From positions 1 to 64,000 of the forward strand of contig NZ_JAENIO010000010.1 in assembly GCF_016595415.1 (NCBI RefSeq): a DNA stretch of 64,000 nucleotides, written 5' to 3'. This DNA is from Roseibacillus ishigakijimensis. GTDB taxonomy: Bacteria; Verrucomicrobiota; Verrucomicrobiia; Verrucomicrobiales; Akkermansiaceae. The position numbers were made by a program, and so were the translations under genes. Of the stretch, positions 13,866-21,871 are shown piece by piece; positions within the stretch are counted from its first letter, which is position 1; every line of letters starts with the position of its first letter. The notes under the pieces were generated by a model. That model did no database searches and was not told the DNA's origin. It worked only from the letters and a program-made list of their open reading frames with translations.

Positions 13866-14141
13866 TCACATCGCGGCCAGCTTCTGCAAGTATTTGTCCG
13901 GATTGGCTTCGAACTTGGCCACACAGGGCTGGCAGCAGAATTTCACTTCCTTGCCCTGATAAACCTTGCTCACCGGGTCGCCCATGGAGCCGAGCTTGTT
14001 ATCGGTGACCAGGCAGGTGTCGGCGGGATACGGTTCGGCCGATCCGGTCAGGGCGCTTCCGCCACAGGATGCCAGAGCTAGGAGACCGGCTCCGCAGAGG
14101 CTACGAAGGGCCGTCTTGCGCTTGAGAGTTCGTGTTTTCAT
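13866..14141 (-). CDS. Lipoprotein with YHS/TRASH-like metal-binding domain
   Basis: The start at 14141 (MKTRTLKRK) gives a 91-residue protein with a lipobox-like LLALASC (Cys near 26), so it is probably a lipoprotein. The mature part has DTCLVTDNKLGSMG and then FCCQPCVAKFEANPDKYL, a Cys pattern (C...CCxxC) typical of YHS/TRASH-like domains that bind copper or other soft metals. It lies 4 nt after a paralogue of similar length and is last in the cluster. A role as a periplasmic metal carrier or sensor is inferred from the domain and the multicopper oxidase neighbour. Confidence 0.7.
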   Translation of the reverse strand: MKTRTLKRKTALRSLCGAGLLALASCGGSALTGSAEPYPADTCLVTDNKLGSMGDPVSKVYQGKEVKFCCQPCVAKFEANPDKYLQKLAAM

Positions 14142-14145
14142 CGTG

Positions 14146-14421
14146 TTATTTCTTTGTTTTCTTTTGTTCTTTCTCGAATTTCTTGCGGAATTTTTCGGGA
14201 TCCTCGCGGAAGTCCTTGGTGCAAGGCTTGCAGCAGAATCCGTAAGCCTGCCCTTTGTATTGGAGGTAGAGAGGCTTGCCCATCTCCCCCAATTTCTCGT
14301 CGGAGACGATGCAGGTCTGCAGGGGATAGGGAGTCGGCGTTTCCTTTGCTGGCTCGTCGGCCCAAAGCGGGTTGAGCGAAGCCAAGCCAAGAAGAAGGAT
14401 AAGGAGGGATTTCTTTTTCAT
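14146..14421 (-). CDS. Secreted YHS/TRASH-like metal-binding protein
   Basis: A 91-residue protein with a clear signal peptide (MKKKSLLILLLGLASLNPLWA) and the core LQTCIVSDEKLGEMGKPL ... YGFCCKPCTKDFREDPEKF. This is the same Cys layout as the downstream gene, from which it is separated by 4 nt. The two are a tandem duplication that has diverged: this one has an ordinary signal peptide and a Lys-rich tail, the other a lipobox. It is probably periplasmic and metal-binding. It follows the glutaredoxin-DoxX gene by 25 nt in one operon. Confidence 0.7.
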   Translation of the reverse strand: MKKKSLLILLLGLASLNPLWADEPAKETPTPYPLQTCIVSDEKLGEMGKPLYLQYKGQAYGFCCKPCTKDFREDPEKFRKKFEKEQKKTKK

Positions 14422-14446: not shown

Positions 14447-15208
14447 TCAGGTCGGGAGGCCCGCGCTTTTCACGAGCATCCAGAGGGACATGGCCATCAT
14501 CATGAGGTTCTCGGTGAGGGAGATGAAGCCGAGGGGGACGCTACTGCCGCCACCGACGCAGGCGCAATTGAGGTCGCGCTTGTCGAGGTAGACGGCCTTA
14601 AAGACCGAGATCGCTCCCAAGGTGCTGACCAACAGAGCCAAGGGGGCAACGAGCCAAGTGAAGAGGCCGGCCACCATGAGAATGCCCGCCCCGGCTTCCA
14701 CGAAGGGATAGAGGTAGGAGTAAGGAACATACCTGCGGGCGAGGAGGTCGTATTGCACAAAGCCGGTGGCAAAAGACTGCAGGTCTTGCAGCTTCAGAAT
14801 GCCCAGCACGGCCATACTAAAGGCGGTGAAGAGCTCGCCAATGCGGAGGAGAGCCAACTCGCCCTGGGAAGCCCAGGTCATGGTCACCGCGAGGAGGAAG
14901 GTCACCGCGAAGACAGCAATGACGGGTTGGTAGGTCTCCCCTTCCTTGGGATCAGGCGGTAGGCCGAGGTGCTCGCGGAGCTGGTCGTAGCCGCCCAGAT
15001 GCTCGCCCTCGAGGAAGATTTGCGGGGTCTCCTCATAACCTTGCTCGGCCTTGTAGGCTTTGTTGGCCTCCATGGATTCCAAGTGTTCGTCCTCAATCTC
15101 ATAGTGATGACGGCGGAGGAGGTCGATGGCCTTGATTCCCCAGGGACACAGGTGATCGGGAGTGACCATGCGGACGATTTTTGCCTTTTTCTTTTGGGTC
15201 TTAGTCAT
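14447..15208 (-). CDS. Glutaredoxin-like domain fused to DoxX/MauE-type membrane domain
   Basis: A 253-residue fusion. Residues 1-85 form a glutaredoxin-like domain: IVRMVTPDHLCPWGIKAIDLL carries a single active-site Cys in CPWG, and ETPQIFLEGEHLGGYDQL is the cis-Pro and glutathione-binding part. Residues about 95-250 hold four hydrophobic segments (for example VIAVFAVTFLLAVTMTWA) of the DoxX/MauE type, with CAC near 217. It could move reducing equivalents across or at the inner membrane. It sits between the multicopper oxidase (22 nt upstream) and the two YHS-like genes, so a role in metal or thiol redox balance is inferred. Confidence 0.72.
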   Translation of the reverse strand: MTKTQKKKAKIVRMVTPDHLCPWGIKAIDLLRRHHYEIEDEHLESMEANKAYKAEQGYEETPQIFLEGEHLGGYDQLREHLGLPPDPKEGETYQPVIAVFAVTFLLAVTMTWASQGELALLRIGELFTAFSMAVLGILKLQDLQSFATGFVQYDLLARRYVPYSYLYPFVEAGAGILMVAGLFTWLVAPLALLVSTLGAISVFKAVYLDKRDLNCACVGGGSSVPLGFISLTENLMMMAMSLWMLVKSAGLPT

Positions 15209-15230: not shown

Positions 15231-17249
15231 TTAAAAGCGGAAGCTCACCCCGGCTCCGAGACCGTGCTCGGAATGATAGGTCCCGGTGAGGGAGAATTGT
15301 TTGTTGAGAAGATAAGAAGCACCCGCCGACCACTCCCACCGGGTGTTGGTGTCGTATTCCACCTCGCCAAAGAGGGAGAGCCGATCGGTGAGGGGAACCT
15401 CCTTCTCCAGACCCACGCGCACGTCCCCCTGCGAGTCAAGGGCGAGAGTGGACTCGATCAGGAAGGGCAAGCGGTAATTCGCCTGAGCGAAAAAGCGGTC
15501 CTCGGCCTCGTGGGAGTTGGTGAAGCGGTAGCCCAGCATGGTGGAGAGATTGGGGTCGAAGTAATGCATCCAGTAGGCATCGAGCTCATACTCCCGGTGG
15601 TCGTGGAAGCCGTAATCCCACATGAGACCGAAGTCCTCCCGCCCCCACATCACGCGGGCATCGCCCATGGTGTGATGGCTAAGCAACATCCCATCCAGAA
15701 GCCAAAAGGTGGGGTTGATGAGCTTGGGATCGAGCTGAGGTTGGTGAGCGGGATTCCGCGCTTTTTCATAGGAAAAGACCCGCGCCATCCCGGCATCCAT
15801 GTGATAGAGGAGGTGGCAATGGAAGAACCAGTCGCCCTCCTCATTGGCCAGGAACTCGATGGTCTGCCGGCCCATGGGCGGGACATCGACGGTGTGCTTG
15901 AGGGGCGAACGGGCGCCCTGGCCATTGAGCAGGCGGAAGAAATGCCCGTGCAGATGCAGGGGGTGGTGCATCATGGTGTCATTGACCAGAGAAATACGCA
16001 GGACTTCGCCCTGTCGCACGGGGATGGTGGACTCCTCCGCGAGGGTCTTGCCATTGAAGGACCAGATGTAGCGGGTCATGTCGCCTGTCAGGCGGAGCTC
16101 GATCTCGCGCACCGGGGCGGAGGCCGGCAGCGTGGTGCTGCGGCGCGCCTGGAGGCGGCCATAGGGAGCCTGGGGGCGGTCCTGCTCCTGGCCCTCCATC
16201 CCGGCCATCGCCATCCCCTCGCCCATAGACCCCATGGCGGCTTCCAGCATGTGGTCCATGGAGTAGAGATTGGGATCGGGCAAATCACGGGCGAGGTGCT
16301 CGGGCCCCTCACCTAAGAACAGAGAGGCATGGCCGGAATTGTCCTGTGCCGTAGCCCGGAATTCCCATGACCCCGACTCCGGAATGGTCACGAGCACGTC
16401 GTAGGTCTCAGCCATGCCCATGAGGAGCTTCTCCACCCGCACGGGCTGCACTGCGGGCCCGTCAGCCGCTACGATGGTGAGCGGACCGGTCGCGGAATGG
16501 GCATAGAAATAAGTGGATGCCCCGGCATTGATCAGCCGCAGCCGCACGGTCTCCCCCGGGGGGGCCGGGAGGCGGCTACGCTGCTGGCCATTGATGAGAA
16601 AGGCATCATAATACACGTCGGAGATGTCCATGGGGGCCATGCGCGACCTTTCCCGCTGCCAGTAGTCGCCCCAGGCCCCCGCTTGCCAGGCTCCCAAGAG
16701 GCTCTGGGCATTGCCTTTCCTGATGGCGTAGTATTCGGAGCCCCGCATCAGGGTCCGCATCACCTCCTGGGGCTTCTCATTGGTCCAATCGGAGAGCACG
16801 ACGACATAATCGCGGTCCGCAGCCACGGGCTCGCCCCCTTGGGGAGTGACGACAAGGGAACCATAGACCCCACGCTGCTCCTGCAAACCAGTATGCGAAT
16901 GATACCAGTAGGTCCCGGCATGGGTGAGCTCGAACTCGAAGAGATGGCCCTCCCCCGGCGGAATGGGCGGCGTGGTGAGGTAGGGCACCCCGTCCATCTC
17001 GTTGGGCACGAGAAGACCGTGCCAGTGGATGGAGGTCTCCTCATCGGCAAGGCCATTGTGCACACGGATGCGGGCTGTATCACCCTCGCGAAAGCGGAGA
17101 GTGGGACCGGGGATGCCGCCATTGAGGGTGAGCGCCCGGCGCGCTTTCCCGGCGGGAGAGAGGGTCTTTTCGGAGACCGTGAGTTCGTAGTTAACGATTT
17201 TTCCCCAAAGCGGGGCGGTAAAGAGAAAGAGAAAGGTCAATATTTTCAT
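15231..17249 (-). CDS. Multicopper oxidase (CopA-like) fused to a CopB-like C-terminal beta-barrel
   Basis: A 672-residue exported protein. Residues 1-16 are a signal peptide. Residues 17-500 form a three-cupredoxin multicopper oxidase with all copper motifs: HWHG 75-78, WYHSHTG 115-121, HPLHLHGH 429-436 and HCHLLYHMDAGM 477-488. A Met-rich stretch at 331-352 recalls the Cu(I)-binding region of CopA/CueO. Residues about 535-672 are not oxidase. They alternate aromatic and polar residues in short strands and end in GVSFRF, with a terminal Phe like an outer-membrane beta-signal, and resemble the CopB copper-resistance barrel. It would oxidise Cu(I) in the periplasm, possibly tethered to the outer membrane. 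Confidence 0.8.
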   Translation of the reverse strand: MKILTFLFLFTAPLWGKIVNYELTVSEKTLSPAGKARRALTLNGGIPGPTLRFREGDTARIRVHNGLADEETSIHWHGLLVPNEMDGVPYLTTPPIPPGEGHLFEFELTHAGTYWYHSHTGLQEQRGVYGSLVVTPQGGEPVAADRDYVVVLSDWTNEKPQEVMRTLMRGSEYYAIRKGNAQSLLGAWQAGAWGDYWQRERSRMAPMDISDVYYDAFLINGQQRSRLPAPPGETVRLRLINAGASTYFYAHSATGPLTIVAADGPAVQPVRVEKLLMGMAETYDVLVTIPESGSWEFRATAQDNSGHASLFLGEGPEHLARDLPDPNLYSMDHMLEAAMGSMGEGMAMAGMEGQEQDRPQAPYGRLQARRSTTLPASAPVREIELRLTGDMTRYIWSFNGKTLAEESTIPVRQGEVLRISLVNDTMMHHPLHLHGHFFRLLNGQGARSPLKHTVDVPPMGRQTIEFLANEEGDWFFHCHLLYHMDAGMARVFSYEKARNPAHQPQLDPKLINPTFWLLDGMLLSHHTMGDARVMWGREDFGLMWDYGFHDHREYELDAYWMHYFDPNLSTMLGYRFTNSHEAEDRFFAQANYRLPFLIESTLALDSQGDVRVGLEKEVPLTDRLSLFGEVEYDTNTRWEWSAGASYLLNKQFSLTGTYHSEHGLGAGVSFRF

Positions 17250-17447: not shown

Positions 17448-17867
17448 TCAAAGACGGAAGACTTGCCACAAACTGCGCGTAAGGACGGCAGGAGGCGGGA
17501 GAGGAACACTGGGACCCCGCACCTGCACCGCAGGGAACTGCTGCCGGGGTTCGGGCTGCCACTCCAGCGCAGCCAGGGTCCACTCGCTGGCGGGCTTGGC
17601 AGGCAGGGCCAGCGGGCTGTCCGGCAGCTCGGCGGGATGGGCCGCGCAGGGGCAAGAGTGACCAATCGGCCCCTCATCCTCCCCCGTATCCGAGCCTTCC
17701 TCTGGCTGCTCCTTCTTCTGACACGGACAGGACGACTCCACTGCGGAAGTCTCTGGCGAGGCGGGAAGTTGACAACAACAAGCCGGATTGCCGATCAGCA
17801 GGATCAGGCAAAAAGTGACGACTTGGTGCAGGAAACTCACGATTCTAAGATGCCTCCCCCCCCTCAT
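17448..17867 (-). CDS. Small secreted Cys-rich protein of the copper cluster
   Basis: A 139-residue protein with an N-terminal hydrophobic segment (VVTFCLILLIGNPACCC) ending in a Cys triplet at 30-32, which could be a lipidated or processed signal peptide. Two CPC motifs follow (47-49 and 72-74), the second after HS. The C-terminal half is Pro-rich. A GTG at 17840 is an alternative start. It is upstream of the multicopper oxidase on the same strand with a 198-bp gap. It resembles no family I can name; metal binding is inferred from the CPC and CCC motifs and the position. The gap 17250-17447 holds no gene I can support. Confidence 0.5.
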   Translation of the reverse strand: MRGGRHLRIVSFLHQVVTFCLILLIGNPACCCQLPASPETSAVESSCPCQKKEQPEEGSDTGEDEGPIGHSCPCAAHPAELPDSPLALPAKPASEWTLAALEWQPEPRQQFPAVQVRGPSVPLPPPAVLTRSLWQVFRL

Positions 17868-17913: not shown

Positions 17914-18993
17914 TCACGCTTCCAGAGGGCCGATGCTCCCCCCCGCAAGGTAGTCGGGCATGACGGCATGCTGCACCGCGAGAGGGTGGCCGGCGACCAA
18001 CTGCTCCAACATGACCTTGCCGAGGAGACGCCCCATGCGAGCCCCACTGCTGCGATAGCGCGCAATGGAGGGGAGGGTGGCCTCGAGGTTGGCATCGTCC
18101 CACATGGCGATGAGGGCAGCCTCCTGCGGGATGCGCTTCTTTTCCCCCAAGAGAAAGCAGAGGGTGGAGATGGAGGCTTCGGTGGAGCCTACGAGGATGC
18201 CGGTGGGAGGCTCGGGCTGGCGGGAGAGACGGCGCAGGACGGAGGCAACGGAGCGCGCGGTGCTCTGGTGACTCTCGACGGAGGCTTCCATTCCCAGGGC
18301 ACGGGCTTCCTCGACGAAAATTCGCGAGGCGGTCTGGTCACCCAGGCTGGTGGGATGCCCGATGAGGTAGAGGACCTTGCGGTGGCCGTATTGGCGAAAG
18401 CGCCCGGCGGCATGGCGGGCGGCAGCCAGGCTATCGGGCACCACGGAGGGGAGCTTGATCTCGTCGTGCTTGCGCCCGAGAACGACGGCGGGCTTGTCCC
18501 GCTCGCTGAACCAACGGTGGATGCTGGCGGTGCCATAGCAAAGGATCCAGCCCGCGGTCTCCGGCTGGGCATCCCACTGCGCGAGCAAGGAGGGCTTGAA
18601 GTGGGTGAAGATGCCCCGATGAGCCTCGAGCTCGAGCTGATAACCGGCCGCCCCCAACCGCTCCCGCAGGGCACCGAGCAGCTCATTGTCGGTGGAGGTT
18701 CTCTCCCCCAGATCAAAGGGGGTGAGGACGCGGATGATGCGGCCAGTGCGGGGGACGATGGCGGGGGCGACAGCGAGGATGCGATGGTGCTTGCCCCGCC
18801 CTCCGAAGGCGAGAATGCCCTCCTCGGCGAGCAGTTGCAGACTTTTCCGCAAGGTCATGCGGCTGACTTGCAGCTCCCGGCAGAGGGCAGCCTCGCTGGG
18901 CAAGGTCCCCTGCCATCGGCCTTGCGATATCTCGCGGCGCAGCACCTGGTAGAGCTGCTGGTGGAGGGCACTGCGATCGAGAGGAGAAGCCAT
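17914..18993 (-). CDS. GntR-type HTH / LacI-type sensor hybrid transcription regulator
   Basis: The start at 18993 (MASPLDRSALHQQ) is preceded by GAGGAGAAG-like sequence on its other side and gives 359 residues. Residues 1-70 are a winged helix of the GntR type (YQVLRREISQG, LPSEAALCRELQVSRMTLRK). The remainder is a LacI/GalR-like periplasmic-binding fold (GRIIRVLTP, GWILCYGT, GHRKVLYLIGHPT, PTGILVGSTEA). Such hybrids in Verrucomicrobia usually sense sugars. It is divergent from a LamG-domain protein gene with 124 bp between the start codons, so that gene is the likely target. The ligand is unknown. Confidence 0.85.
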   Translation of the reverse strand: MASPLDRSALHQQLYQVLRREISQGRWQGTLPSEAALCRELQVSRMTLRKSLQLLAEEGILAFGGRGKHHRILAVAPAIVPRTGRIIRVLTPFDLGERTSTDNELLGALRERLGAAGYQLELEAHRGIFTHFKPSLLAQWDAQPETAGWILCYGTASIHRWFSERDKPAVVLGRKHDEIKLPSVVPDSLAAARHAAGRFRQYGHRKVLYLIGHPTSLGDQTASRIFVEEARALGMEASVESHQSTARSVASVLRRLSRQPEPPTGILVGSTEASISTLCFLLGEKKRIPQEAALIAMWDDANLEATLPSIARYRSSGARMGRLLGKVMLEQLVAGHPLAVQHAVMPDYLAGGSIGPLEA

Positions 18994-19042
18994 GACGAGG
19001 GTGCGGCACGATGCACGCGGCGGGCCAAGCGGGCAGCAGAGT

Positions 19043-19059
19043 TGTCTAGCCCGCAGACA
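19043..19059. promoter_or_regulatory. Candidate operator in the regulator/LamG intergenic region
   Basis: TGTCT-N7-AGACA is a perfect 5-bp inverted repeat centred in the 124-bp divergent gap, where the hybrid regulator would be expected to bind. The repeat is short and could occur by chance. Confidence 0.3.
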
Positions 19060-19117
19060 GCAACAATCACCGGGGAAAAAGGCGCGCTGGCACGCCCACC
19101 GCTGACTTGGGGCAGCT

Positions 19118-21871
19118 ATGATTTCACCAAGAACAATCAGCATTCCAGCCCCGCTGGCTCCCATTGCCCGCACTCTTCTGCTCGCTTGGGGGAGTGGCCA
19201 CCTTTCGGCGGAGACCGTCGTCTACTGGCGCTTCGAGGGCGATGGCACGACCGAACCCACCGAGGGAGCCTATGTGCAGGACACCGATGGCCACACTGCG
19301 GTGCAGGCCGCAGGCATCCCCGCCATCGACCTCTCGGGAAATGGCAACAACCTTTATTCGTGGAACAATGATTACTCGGGCCACCAATACCAGGCCCTCG
19401 GCACGGCGGGCAATCCCTTCACCACCCTTCCCAACAACGGAGAGGCGAACAACTGGGCCATCCACAATGTGAGCGGCTACTCCGGCAGCTTCACCTGGTC
19501 GGAGCAATCCAACCCCACCGGCACGGACCTGGAAACCTGGACTTCACCGACCTGGACCATCGAGGCCTCCTTCCTCACCACGACCACCAATGGGCACCAG
19601 ACCTTTGTGGGGCGGGACGGCAACGGGGTCTCCAACACCAATGCGGCCAATGCCCCCGTCTACTTCCAAATCACCCCAGGCGGCAGCGTGCGCATCCTCT
19701 ACGTGGATGCGGCGGGCAATGCCCACGCCGCCCTGGACCCGACCCCGGTGCGCACCAATACCTGGTATAGCTACGCCGCCATCAGCGATGGCGAAACCCT
19801 CAGCCTCTGGCGCACGGAGCGGGGCAGCACCTTCCTGGAGGTGGCCTCGGCCGACCTGAGCGAATCCACCAACCCCGCCCTCGCCGACCCGGGGGTGGAT
19901 GCCAATGGCGAGGTCTGGCCCTGGACGGTTGGCCGGGGACGCTACGGCACCTCGGACAATCCCCACGACAATCACGGCGACCGCTTCTATGGCTCCATCG
20001 ATGAGGTGCGCATCAGCGATGTGGCCCTCCCCGTAGAGGAGCTGCTCGCTTCCTTCCCTACCACGGCAGAAGACAGCGATGCCGATGGCTTACCCGACAG
20101 CTGGGAAACCACGAACTTTGGCACCATCAACTACTACCCCGATGATGACTACGACCTGGACTTCAGCACCAACTACGCGGAATACGCCGCAGGCACCGAT
20201 CCCGACGACGAGAACGACTGGCCGGATAGCGACGACGACGGTCTGGGCGATGGCTGGGAAATGCTCTACCTCGGTGGCACCCTGGACGGTGGACCCGACG
20301 AGGACCCGGATGGCGACTACAACACCAACCTGGCGGAATTCCTCGCCGCCAGCGATCCCTCCAGCGCCCTGAGCTTTCCCGACTGGGACGACGACTATGT
20401 CAATGACGGCTGGGAGCTCCATTACTTCCCGGCCTACAGCGATCCGGAGGAGATTGACGTCACCCTCGATCCGGATGGCGACCTGCATAGCACCGAGGCA
20501 GAATTCCGGGCCGAGACCGATCCCAACGATATCTTCTCCTCGCCGGACCTCGATGATTTCCTCGGAGACAGCCTTCCCGATGGCTGGGAGGTCTACTACT
20601 TCGGGCAAACCGGAGACGACCTGGAGACCGCGGTGGGACGGCAGGGCCCCACGGACGATCCCGATGGCGACGGCTTCTCCAACTTCATGGAATACGCGGC
20701 GGCCACCGACCCCACGGATGCCCAATCCTACGAGGCCACACTGGGCTACTGGCGCTTCGAAGAGGCCAGCGAGGGAGAAGTGCCAGCGGGAGGCAATGGC
20801 CAATATCTCTACCCGGCCTCCATTCAGGATTCCTCCCTCTACGGCAACCACATGATGGCCTGGGCGGACTATAGCCGCCCCAACTACGCGGCTCTCTTGC
20901 CCGCCGCCACCATTCCCGCTACCGGGGAGAGCAATGAGGGGTCCCTCCTCTTCACCCGCAATGGCAATGGCGTCTACTACATCGAAGCGGTCTTCACCAC
21001 CCCCACCGCGCATCTGGGCGGCGGCACCGCCACCTTGCGCACCGCGACCTTTGAGGAGCTCACCGTCGAGGCAAGCTTCCGCACCGAGGTCTCGGGGGTC
21101 TGGCAATCGCCCGTGGCCAAGTTCGGCAATCCCGTGGGTGGCCAGCCCCCCTTCTCCTTCAAGGTCGACACCACCGACAAGCTCCGCCTGGGCTTGATCG
21201 ATGGCTCGGGAGTCGCTCGCGAGATCATCAGCGAGACAACCATCGCCGTCGGCAGCTGGTATTCCGCCGCCGCCGTGATCACCGCCGACGAGATGCGGCT
21301 CTACCTCAAACTACCGGGCGAAGCCTCCTACCGGCTGGAAGGCTCCCTCGCCATCGAGGGCGCATGGCACGTGCCGGAAAGCGGACCGGAAAACACGGTT
21401 TGGAACATCGGAGCAGGGATGTGGGCCGGCACCCAGACCGATGCCTTCGGCGGCTACCTCGACGAAGTCCGCATCACCGCCAAGGCCCTCCCGGTGAGCG
21501 CCTTCCTCTTCCACGAAGAAAGCACGGGCTCGCCCTATGAGCTCTGGGCCGCGAGCGAAATCCCCGACCCCGCCCAGCGGGAGGCAGGCGCCGACCCCGA
21601 TGGCGACGGCACCCCCAATGGTATCGAGTTCGCCCTTGCTCTGGATCCGATGGACGCGCATTCCACCTTTACCGCCAGCCTCAGTGACGAGCTCGCGCTC
21701 ACCTGGCCGGCTGCCGAGGGCCTCAGCTTCACCATCCAGACCAGTCCGGACCTCAGCCCCGGTAGCTGGCAGGACGTGACCACGGTCACCGCCAGCGGAG
21801 CGGAGGGCACCTGGCCCCTCCCGGAGGCGAGCGGCACGGCCTTCTTCCGCATCGTGGTGAATGGCAACTAG
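19118..21871 (+). CDS. Large secreted protein with two LamG-like domains and Asp-rich repeats
   Basis: A 917-residue protein with an N-terminal hydrophobic export signal (about residues 14-30). Two LamG/concanavalin-like domains are seen: about 30-310 (VVYWRFEGDG ... GSIDEVRISDVALP) and about 545-800 (LGYWRFEEAS ... GYLDEVRITAKALP). Between them lie several Asp-rich calcium-type motifs: DSDADGLPDSWE, DSDDDGLGDGWE, DPDGDGFSNFMEYA. The C-terminal 100 residues contain DPDGDGTPNGIEF and the tail domain seen in other secreted proteins here. It probably binds glycans or cell-surface material outside the cell. A strong terminator follows. Confidence 0.8.
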   Translation: MISPRTISIPAPLAPIARTLLLAWGSGHLSAETVVYWRFEGDGTTEPTEGAYVQDTDGHTAVQAAGIPAIDLSGNGNNLYSWNNDYSGHQYQALGTAGNPFTTLPNNGEANNWAIHNVSGYSGSFTWSEQSNPTGTDLETWTSPTWTIEASFLTTTTNGHQTFVGRDGNGVSNTNAANAPVYFQITPGGSVRILYVDAAGNAHAALDPTPVRTNTWYSYAAISDGETLSLWRTERGSTFLEVASADLSESTNPALADPGVDANGEVWPWTVGRGRYGTSDNPHDNHGDRFYGSIDEVRISDVALPVEELLASFPTTAEDSDADGLPDSWETTNFGTINYYPDDDYDLDFSTNYAEYAAGTDPDDENDWPDSDDDGLGDGWEMLYLGGTLDGGPDEDPDGDYNTNLAEFLAASDPSSALSFPDWDDDYVNDGWELHYFPAYSDPEEIDVTLDPDGDLHSTEAEFRAETDPNDIFSSPDLDDFLGDSLPDGWEVYYFGQTGDDLETAVGRQGPTDDPDGDGFSNFMEYAAATDPTDAQSYEATLGYWRFEEASEGEVPAGGNGQYLYPASIQDSSLYGNHMMAWADYSRPNYAALLPAATIPATGESNEGSLLFTRNGNGVYYIEAVFTTPTAHLGGGTATLRTATFEELTVEASFRTEVSGVWQSPVAKFGNPVGGQPPFSFKVDTTDKLRLGLIDGSGVAREIISETTIAVGSWYSAAAVITADEMRLYLKLPGEASYRLEGSLAIEGAWHVPESGPENTVWNIGAGMWAGTQTDAFGGYLDEVRITAKALPVSAFLFHEESTGSPYELWAASEIPDPAQREAGADPDGDGTPNGIEFALALDPMDAHSTFTASLSDELALTWPAAEGLSFTIQTSPDLSPGSWQDVTTVTASGAEGTWPLPEASGTAFFRIVVNGN

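Follow-up and report, generated by a model that had tools for sequence, protein, structure and literature searches.

On sequence, a single gene of Roseibacillus ishigakijimensis encodes a complete multicopper oxidase (MCO) joined in one chain to a distant relative of CopB that is predicted to form a 12-stranded outer-membrane beta-barrel. The gene is one open reading frame (15231-17249, minus strand; ATG start, 672 residues) in the 64,000-nucleotide stretch of contig NZ_JAENIO010000010.1 that was analysed (the window). Its product is read here, at a probability of roughly 0.6, as a single-chain PcoA-PcoB, in which a Cu(I) oxidase is tethered to a copper-passing barrel and YHS proteins encoded downstream supply or buffer Cu(I). 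The core of the original prediction, a complete oxidase followed in the same chain by an outer-membrane-type barrel related to CopB/PcoB, is borne out by Pfam domains and by the 12 predicted strands.

A putative Sec-like signal peptide without a twin-arginine motif (residues 1-16, MKILTFLFLFTAPLWG; 17202..17249, minus strand; cleavage site placed by eye) precedes the MCO region (residues 17-495; 15765..17201, minus strand), which is delimited by Pfam, NCBIfam, ligand columns and predicted strands. Three cupredoxin domains score above their Pfam cutoffs (150.9, 127.8 and 77.3 bits against 21, 20.4 and 21), with Cu-oxidase_3 at residues 25-137 (E 2e-44), Cu-oxidase at 147-304 (E 1.8e-21) and Cu-oxidase_2 at 382-495 (E 3.1e-37). 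All 12 copper ligands are present (H75, H77, H117, H119, H429, H432, H434, H477, C478, H479, H483 and M488), and all 12 columns are identical in 54/54 aligned fused proteins, an alignment of 53 of the 54 candidate fused reading frames plus the window protein (L051, with an odd insert, is omitted). These ten histidines, one cysteine and axial methionine presumably build the T1 and trinuclear copper sites. Compared with annotated PcoA, the oxidase shows about 43% identity across 60% of the query length, and copper is its presumed substrate. The R. ishigakijimensis genome holds no second gene with a Cu-oxidase_3 match, no PF05275 (CopB) match at E 0.001 and no CopC that could be found.

A linker (residues 496-513; 15711..15764, minus strand), with a short helix at 508-511 in the full-length model, leads into the predicted barrel (residues 514-672; 15234..15710, minus strand), assigned from AF2, Foldseek, PF05275 and hhalign. 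The domain was first put at about 130 residues and in fact spans about 159; the chain does end in the terminal Phe claimed for it (...GVSFRF). Modelled alone by AF2 from 60 aligned sequences, the domain is neither a soluble fold nor a barrel of fewer than eight strands but a 12-stranded barrel (mean pLDDT 92.7, pTM 0.80), and the full-length AF2 model has the same 12 strands (pLDDT 90.1, pTM 0.89). PcoB (7pge) ranks first in a Foldseek search of the PDB (E 3.4e-6). The alignment to PcoB (VIA) reaches Z 15.4 over 158 residues at 2.9 Å, tied with OmpLA, KdgM and VhGalP (15.6 each), so PcoB does not stand out on fold alone.

Sequence comparisons add to the fold evidence and make the domain a distant CopB relative that stays below the family cutoff. 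PF05275 matches residues 551-635 of the whole protein at E 0.0069 (16.4 bits) and the C-terminal part alone at E 0.00059 (19.9 bits), both under the cutoff of 27; the proposed resemblance to the CopB barrel thus stands as distant kinship, upheld by fold and by hhalign, and falls short of membership in the Pfam family. Across a 60-row barrel alignment (59 of 60 barrels from the scan plus the window barrel, with L051 omitted), CopB is the Pfam family matched most often (23/60 at E up to 0.1, best 3.2e-7), with the generic OMP_b-brl a close second (22, best 8.4e-5). Alignment of the barrel profile to eight CopB sequences by hhalign gives a probability of 95.8% (E 7.1e-9). Searched by sequence against the PDB, the profile finds only a designed barrel (9fdg, E 0.00023); PcoB is recovered by fold and not by this profile. 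A barrel model run on 387 Verrucomicrobiota genomes matches 37 places in 33 genomes, of which 32 lie in frames of at least 700 residues and four in broken or cut frames, while the sole stand-alone gene is a true CopB (G254).

The closest known systems are PcoA and PcoB of the E. coli plasmid pco system and CopA and CopB of the Pseudomonas cop system, which likewise pair a copper MCO with a 12-stranded outer-membrane barrel, although as two genes rather than one chain. PcoB has 12 strands with both termini in the periplasm (PMC9210255). Because a 12-stranded barrel of this kind keeps both termini periplasmic, the oxidase most likely sits tethered at the periplasmic face of the outer membrane and not on the surface. 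The suggestion that copper oxidation is placed at the outer membrane therefore survives as to the tethering, which is probable, but needs the periplasmic side specified.

In the proposed mechanism, the MCO would be exported by Sec and fold in the periplasm, where the short linker would tether it to an outer-membrane barrel of PcoB/CopB stock. The oxidase probably converts Cu(I) to the less toxic Cu(II) beside the barrel's periplasmic opening. Copper would probably cross the outer membrane through this barrel, whether inwards or outwards. The part of PcoC/CopC would in Verrucomicrobiota fall to the one or two exported four-cysteine YHS/TRASH proteins, which probably capture Cu(I) in the periplasm and either deliver it to the oxidase or keep a buffered supply for that enzyme. 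Both the conduction of copper by the barrel and the role given to the YHS proteins are inferred.

The barrel might instead be a non-conducting anchor whose sole task is to keep the oxidase at the outer membrane. This reading is unlikely, but it draws on the fate of the PcoB pore acids, the pairs D97-E207 and E130-E223 plus E187 (PMC9210255). Three of these (E187, E207 and E223) can be placed on the fusion barrel in a register set by eye from the LT-N/D-R and LxP turns common to both proteins, and in that by-eye register none has a conserved counterpart in 54 rows: the commonest residues are E (20/54) and W (14/54) at position 599 of the window protein, G (20/54) and A (13/54) at 615, and E (18/54) and Q (16/54) at 631. 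With those three acids not conserved, a copper path would have to run along other residues. The outer and inner barrel halves do not differ significantly in mean conservation (2.71 versus 2.58 bits, permutation p 0.17), which also suits a bare anchor.

Against this, 19 of 26 near-invariant barrel columns fall in the extracellular half (hypergeometric p 0.018), although several of these columns vary outside the pattern-selected sample. The genome scan used the pattern HS[ED][YH]G[LFT]G[AG]G, so that the near-invariance of H659, S660, G663, G665 and G667 is partly built in; with columns 659-667 dropped because their pattern served to find the loci, 15 of 21 near-invariant columns remain in the extracellular half (p 0.036). 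Among 11 usable members found by other routes (the L076 row, in the wrong frame, is left out), residue 659 is Asp in six and His in five. A lipid could serve as a bare anchor, and the retention of a whole barrel suggests a pore.

The reading of the protein as an oxidase coupled to a copper-passing barrel also draws on its neighbours. A contig scan with a barrel-only query finds 63 loci, and the barrel model recovers 62 of them (the one missed, L075, matches over 35 residues where its contig begins); of these, 43 are labelled Verrucomicrobiota and 19 are others. Downstream of the R. ishigakijimensis fusion gene lie two genes for 91-residue YHS/TRASH proteins with CCxxC motifs, the first exported (14146..14421, minus strand; PF04945, E 2.8e-8) and the second with a lipobox-like signal, LASC (13866..14141, minus strand; E 1.4e-7 on a longer frame). 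Both pass the PF04945 cutoff (34.0 and 31.9 versus 30.3 bits), and they are the only PF04945 matches in the genome. They share this family with other YHS/TRASH proteins but differ as small, exported, stand-alone proteins tied to the Verrucomicrobiota fusion. The genes are candidates for the copper carrier of a genome without CopC.

A YHS gene lies within 900 bp behind the fusion gene at 42/62 loci, which are 42 of the 43 Verrucomicrobiota loci and none of the 19 others; behind the lone Verrucomicrobiota locus without one (L014), the contig ends after 329 bases. All 51 YHS sequences share four invariant cysteines, and a lipobox-like stretch occurs in 17 of the 42 proteins encoded by the first YHS gene. 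No YHS match occurs in the sequence stretches covered beside the more distant Verrucomicrobiota fusions L109, L112-L114 and L116. Absence of YHS at 19/19 loci outside Verrucomicrobiota indicates that the fusion as such can do without it. Among 10 proteins of six such loci, drawn from the 15 with frames listed, there is no common partner; the neighbours include histidine kinases, a response regulator, a DUF302 protein, a c'-type cytochrome and a protease, among others.

Other genes around the fusion recur less. A 253-residue protein with a glutaredoxin-like N-terminus and a MauE/DoxX membrane domain (14447..15208, minus strand; glutaredoxin domain and PF07291, E 1.8e-13) is encoded from 22 bp after the fusion gene, ahead of the YHS genes, and is found at 3/62 loci. 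Upstream, a candidate Cys-rich secreted protein of 139 residues (17448..17867, minus strand) has no Pfam match, and similar frames occur at 3/62 loci. A further frame (17914-19173, minus strand) adjoins the upstream region of the locus; by eye, it seems to resemble a GntR-type helix-turn-helix protein with a ligand-binding domain.

A tethered, periplasm-facing oxidase could also act on another substrate, as a ferroxidase or a manganese or phenol oxidase, with the YHS proteins serving that metal. CopA (TIGR01480) is the best NCBIfam match but at 438.6 bits stays under its cutoff of 478.95, and many fused relatives have only a weak Met-rich segment (down to 1-2 Met) ahead of the third cupredoxin domain. 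Yet CopA is by far the best subfamily match, and the window protein's own segment (about 330-352) has 7 Met in 30 residues. The closest experimental parallels are copper oxidases, and the YHS cysteines suit Cu(I), as general chemistry would have it. A different substrate is accordingly rather improbable.

Classical (type Va) autotransporters thread a helix through the barrel pore and hold the passenger outside. An arrangement of this kind, with the oxidase passed through the barrel and displayed for surface oxidation of copper, iron or manganese, would match the order of an N-terminal passenger and a C-terminal 12-stranded barrel; the autotransporters EstA (Z 12.6) and NalP (11.9) are among the structural matches, and surface Mn(II)-oxidising MCOs exist (PMC4454072). 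It is nevertheless very unlikely: PcoB comes first in Foldseek, with Z 15.4 versus 12.6 for autotransporters, and strand 1 of the full-length model is preceded by no long helix, just residues 508-511. PcoA, the nearest functional parallel, is periplasmic (PMC9210255).

The single-chain PcoA-PcoB differs from its two-gene counterparts in its apparent export route. PcoA carries a Tat signal (PMC7558416), whereas the R. ishigakijimensis fusion has a Sec-like one, and the N-termini extend this difference: the fused proteins are almost all Sec-like, while most of the unfused partners have Tat motifs. A twin-arginine motif occurs in 13 of 16 unfused oxidases with a whole N-terminus, namely 6/8 plasmid proteins by pattern (L079 and L085 are near copies) and 7/8 Verrucomicrobiota proteins read by eye; cut or frame-broken N-termini (L084, L086-L093) are left out of this count. 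By comparison, 52 of 54 fused proteins lack the motif, one of the 54 (L024) being frame-broken and uninformative for the signal. The two that match a loose pattern (L030 and L034, SRRLA) are close relatives, and one loose match (L108) is seen among further fused proteins. The fusion could hardly use Tat because the barrel must reach the outer membrane unfolded. Many Verrucomicrobiaceae-type fusions (L039, L040, L041, L044, L045, L046 and others) carry an ACDxCK-like CxxC directly after the signal peptide, a motif absent from the window protein that may serve as a lipid anchor or as a metal site.

The fusion is real and old. Its architecture recurs at full length and 79% identity in a genome of the same genus (G001) and at 54-64% identity in other genomes, with Roseibacillus persicicus (L013) as a named record. 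At 60/62 loci the MCO shares an open frame with the barrel; the exceptions are a barrel at a contig edge (L023) and L056. The 19 loci outside Verrucomicrobiota include Desulfobacter-, Desulfobulbus-, Desulfuromonas-, Geobacter- and Syntrophus-type or other Deltaproteobacteria/Thermodesulfobacteriota, as well as Nitrospirae, Acidobacteria, Neomarinimicrobiota and Methylococcaceae, plus two that are less well placed. On Bacteroidota plasmids, a Hymenobacter barrel query falls inside an annotated multicopper oxidase in 22/23 records, as does the barrel match in Ilyobacter. A few homologues have broken frames (L024, L035, L038, G013 and G167), but nothing about the R. ishigakijimensis gene suggests that copA and copB were joined by a fault of assembly or reading frame. 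The isolate genomes, the 60/62 loci and the annotation of the fusion as one gene on Bacteroidota plasmids refute such an artefact, leaving it a negligible probability.

An LG+C20 tree of 58 oxidases separates 43 fused from 15 unfused proteins by one branch with a support of 100/100, a single change. The fused rows comprise 30 scan loci picked for spread, 12 other fused proteins and the window protein, and each unfused oxidase stands beside a CopB; the barrel served to find the fused rows and CopB the unfused ones, so a barrel-less oxidase belonging to the fused side could have escaped. With the tree unrooted, one fusion and one split fit it equally well, and a single origin of the fusion is compatible with it. 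A broader proposal is tentative, at somewhat less than even odds: that these proteins form an unnamed, old family of one-chain copper oxidase-conduits, which arose by a single fusion as export changed from Tat to Sec and which now occurs in at least seven phyla. In Verrucomicrobiota, it would form a constant module with four-cysteine YHS proteins that supply the tethered oxidase with Cu(I), so that copper is oxidised and transported at the outer membrane in one coupled step.

Fusions of this kind were already known but barely described. The multicopper oxidase G2EDV6 belongs to Bizionia argentinensis, presumably a marine flavobacterium. It has three cupredoxin domains and a porin-like segment at residues 611-809 with some similarity to PcoB, a like architecture mentioned in passing in a 2024 paper whose available portions hold no analysis of distribution, signal or neighbours (PMC11213822). 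A fused PcoA-PcoB was reported in five Legionella species and read as evidence of PcoA-PcoB interaction (PMC3548706, BMC Microbiol. 2012); as described in the one sentence given to it there, it is the same kind of fusion, and the contrast first drawn with the separate CopA and CopB of Pseudomonas-type systems is thus not unique. Plasmid searches with gammaproteobacterial and proteobacterial barrels return no Legionella record. The Hymenobacter qilianensis plasmid protein WP_187734547.1 has the same architecture, and that plasmid type (L076) falls on the fused side of the tree, but its barrel is more distant, its neighbours differ and no YHS gene is annotated beside it. The barrel has been overlooked because plasmid records name such genes merely 'multicopper oxidase domain-containing protein'. 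The breadth, Sec export and YHS partner of the PcoA-PcoB-type fusion look new: searches of open-access literature found no report of them and no experiment on any member, and the available portions of PMC6769254 and PMC11082258 contain nothing on such a fusion.

How PcoA and PcoB cooperate, and in which direction PcoB works, is unsettled. Cu2+ flux through PcoB in liposomes was read as import (PMC9210255), whereas Caulobacter PcoB was read as a route of efflux, with docking of PcoA on PcoB proposed (PMC12509749). A natural one-to-one fusion across several phyla argues for coupled oxidation and passage. With a single chain, stoichiometry and side are set, and one polypeptide suffices for assays of both steps.

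Several loci depart from the general pattern. At L056, a partial barrel (L056:1644-2102) is followed by two YHS genes, and the 1.6 kb ahead of it hold no oxidase; the locus may be a remnant, a rearrangement or an assembly fault. L112-L114, from a genus (g3) in the family of R. ishigakijimensis, encode a highly divergent fusion. It clusters with the Hymenobacter plasmid protein, apart from the family's other copies, which suggests transfer between phyla, and no YHS gene was found nearby. In one genome (L102, G414), a fusion lies within a few kilobases of a Tat-type oxidase that is encoded separately, together with its own CopB.
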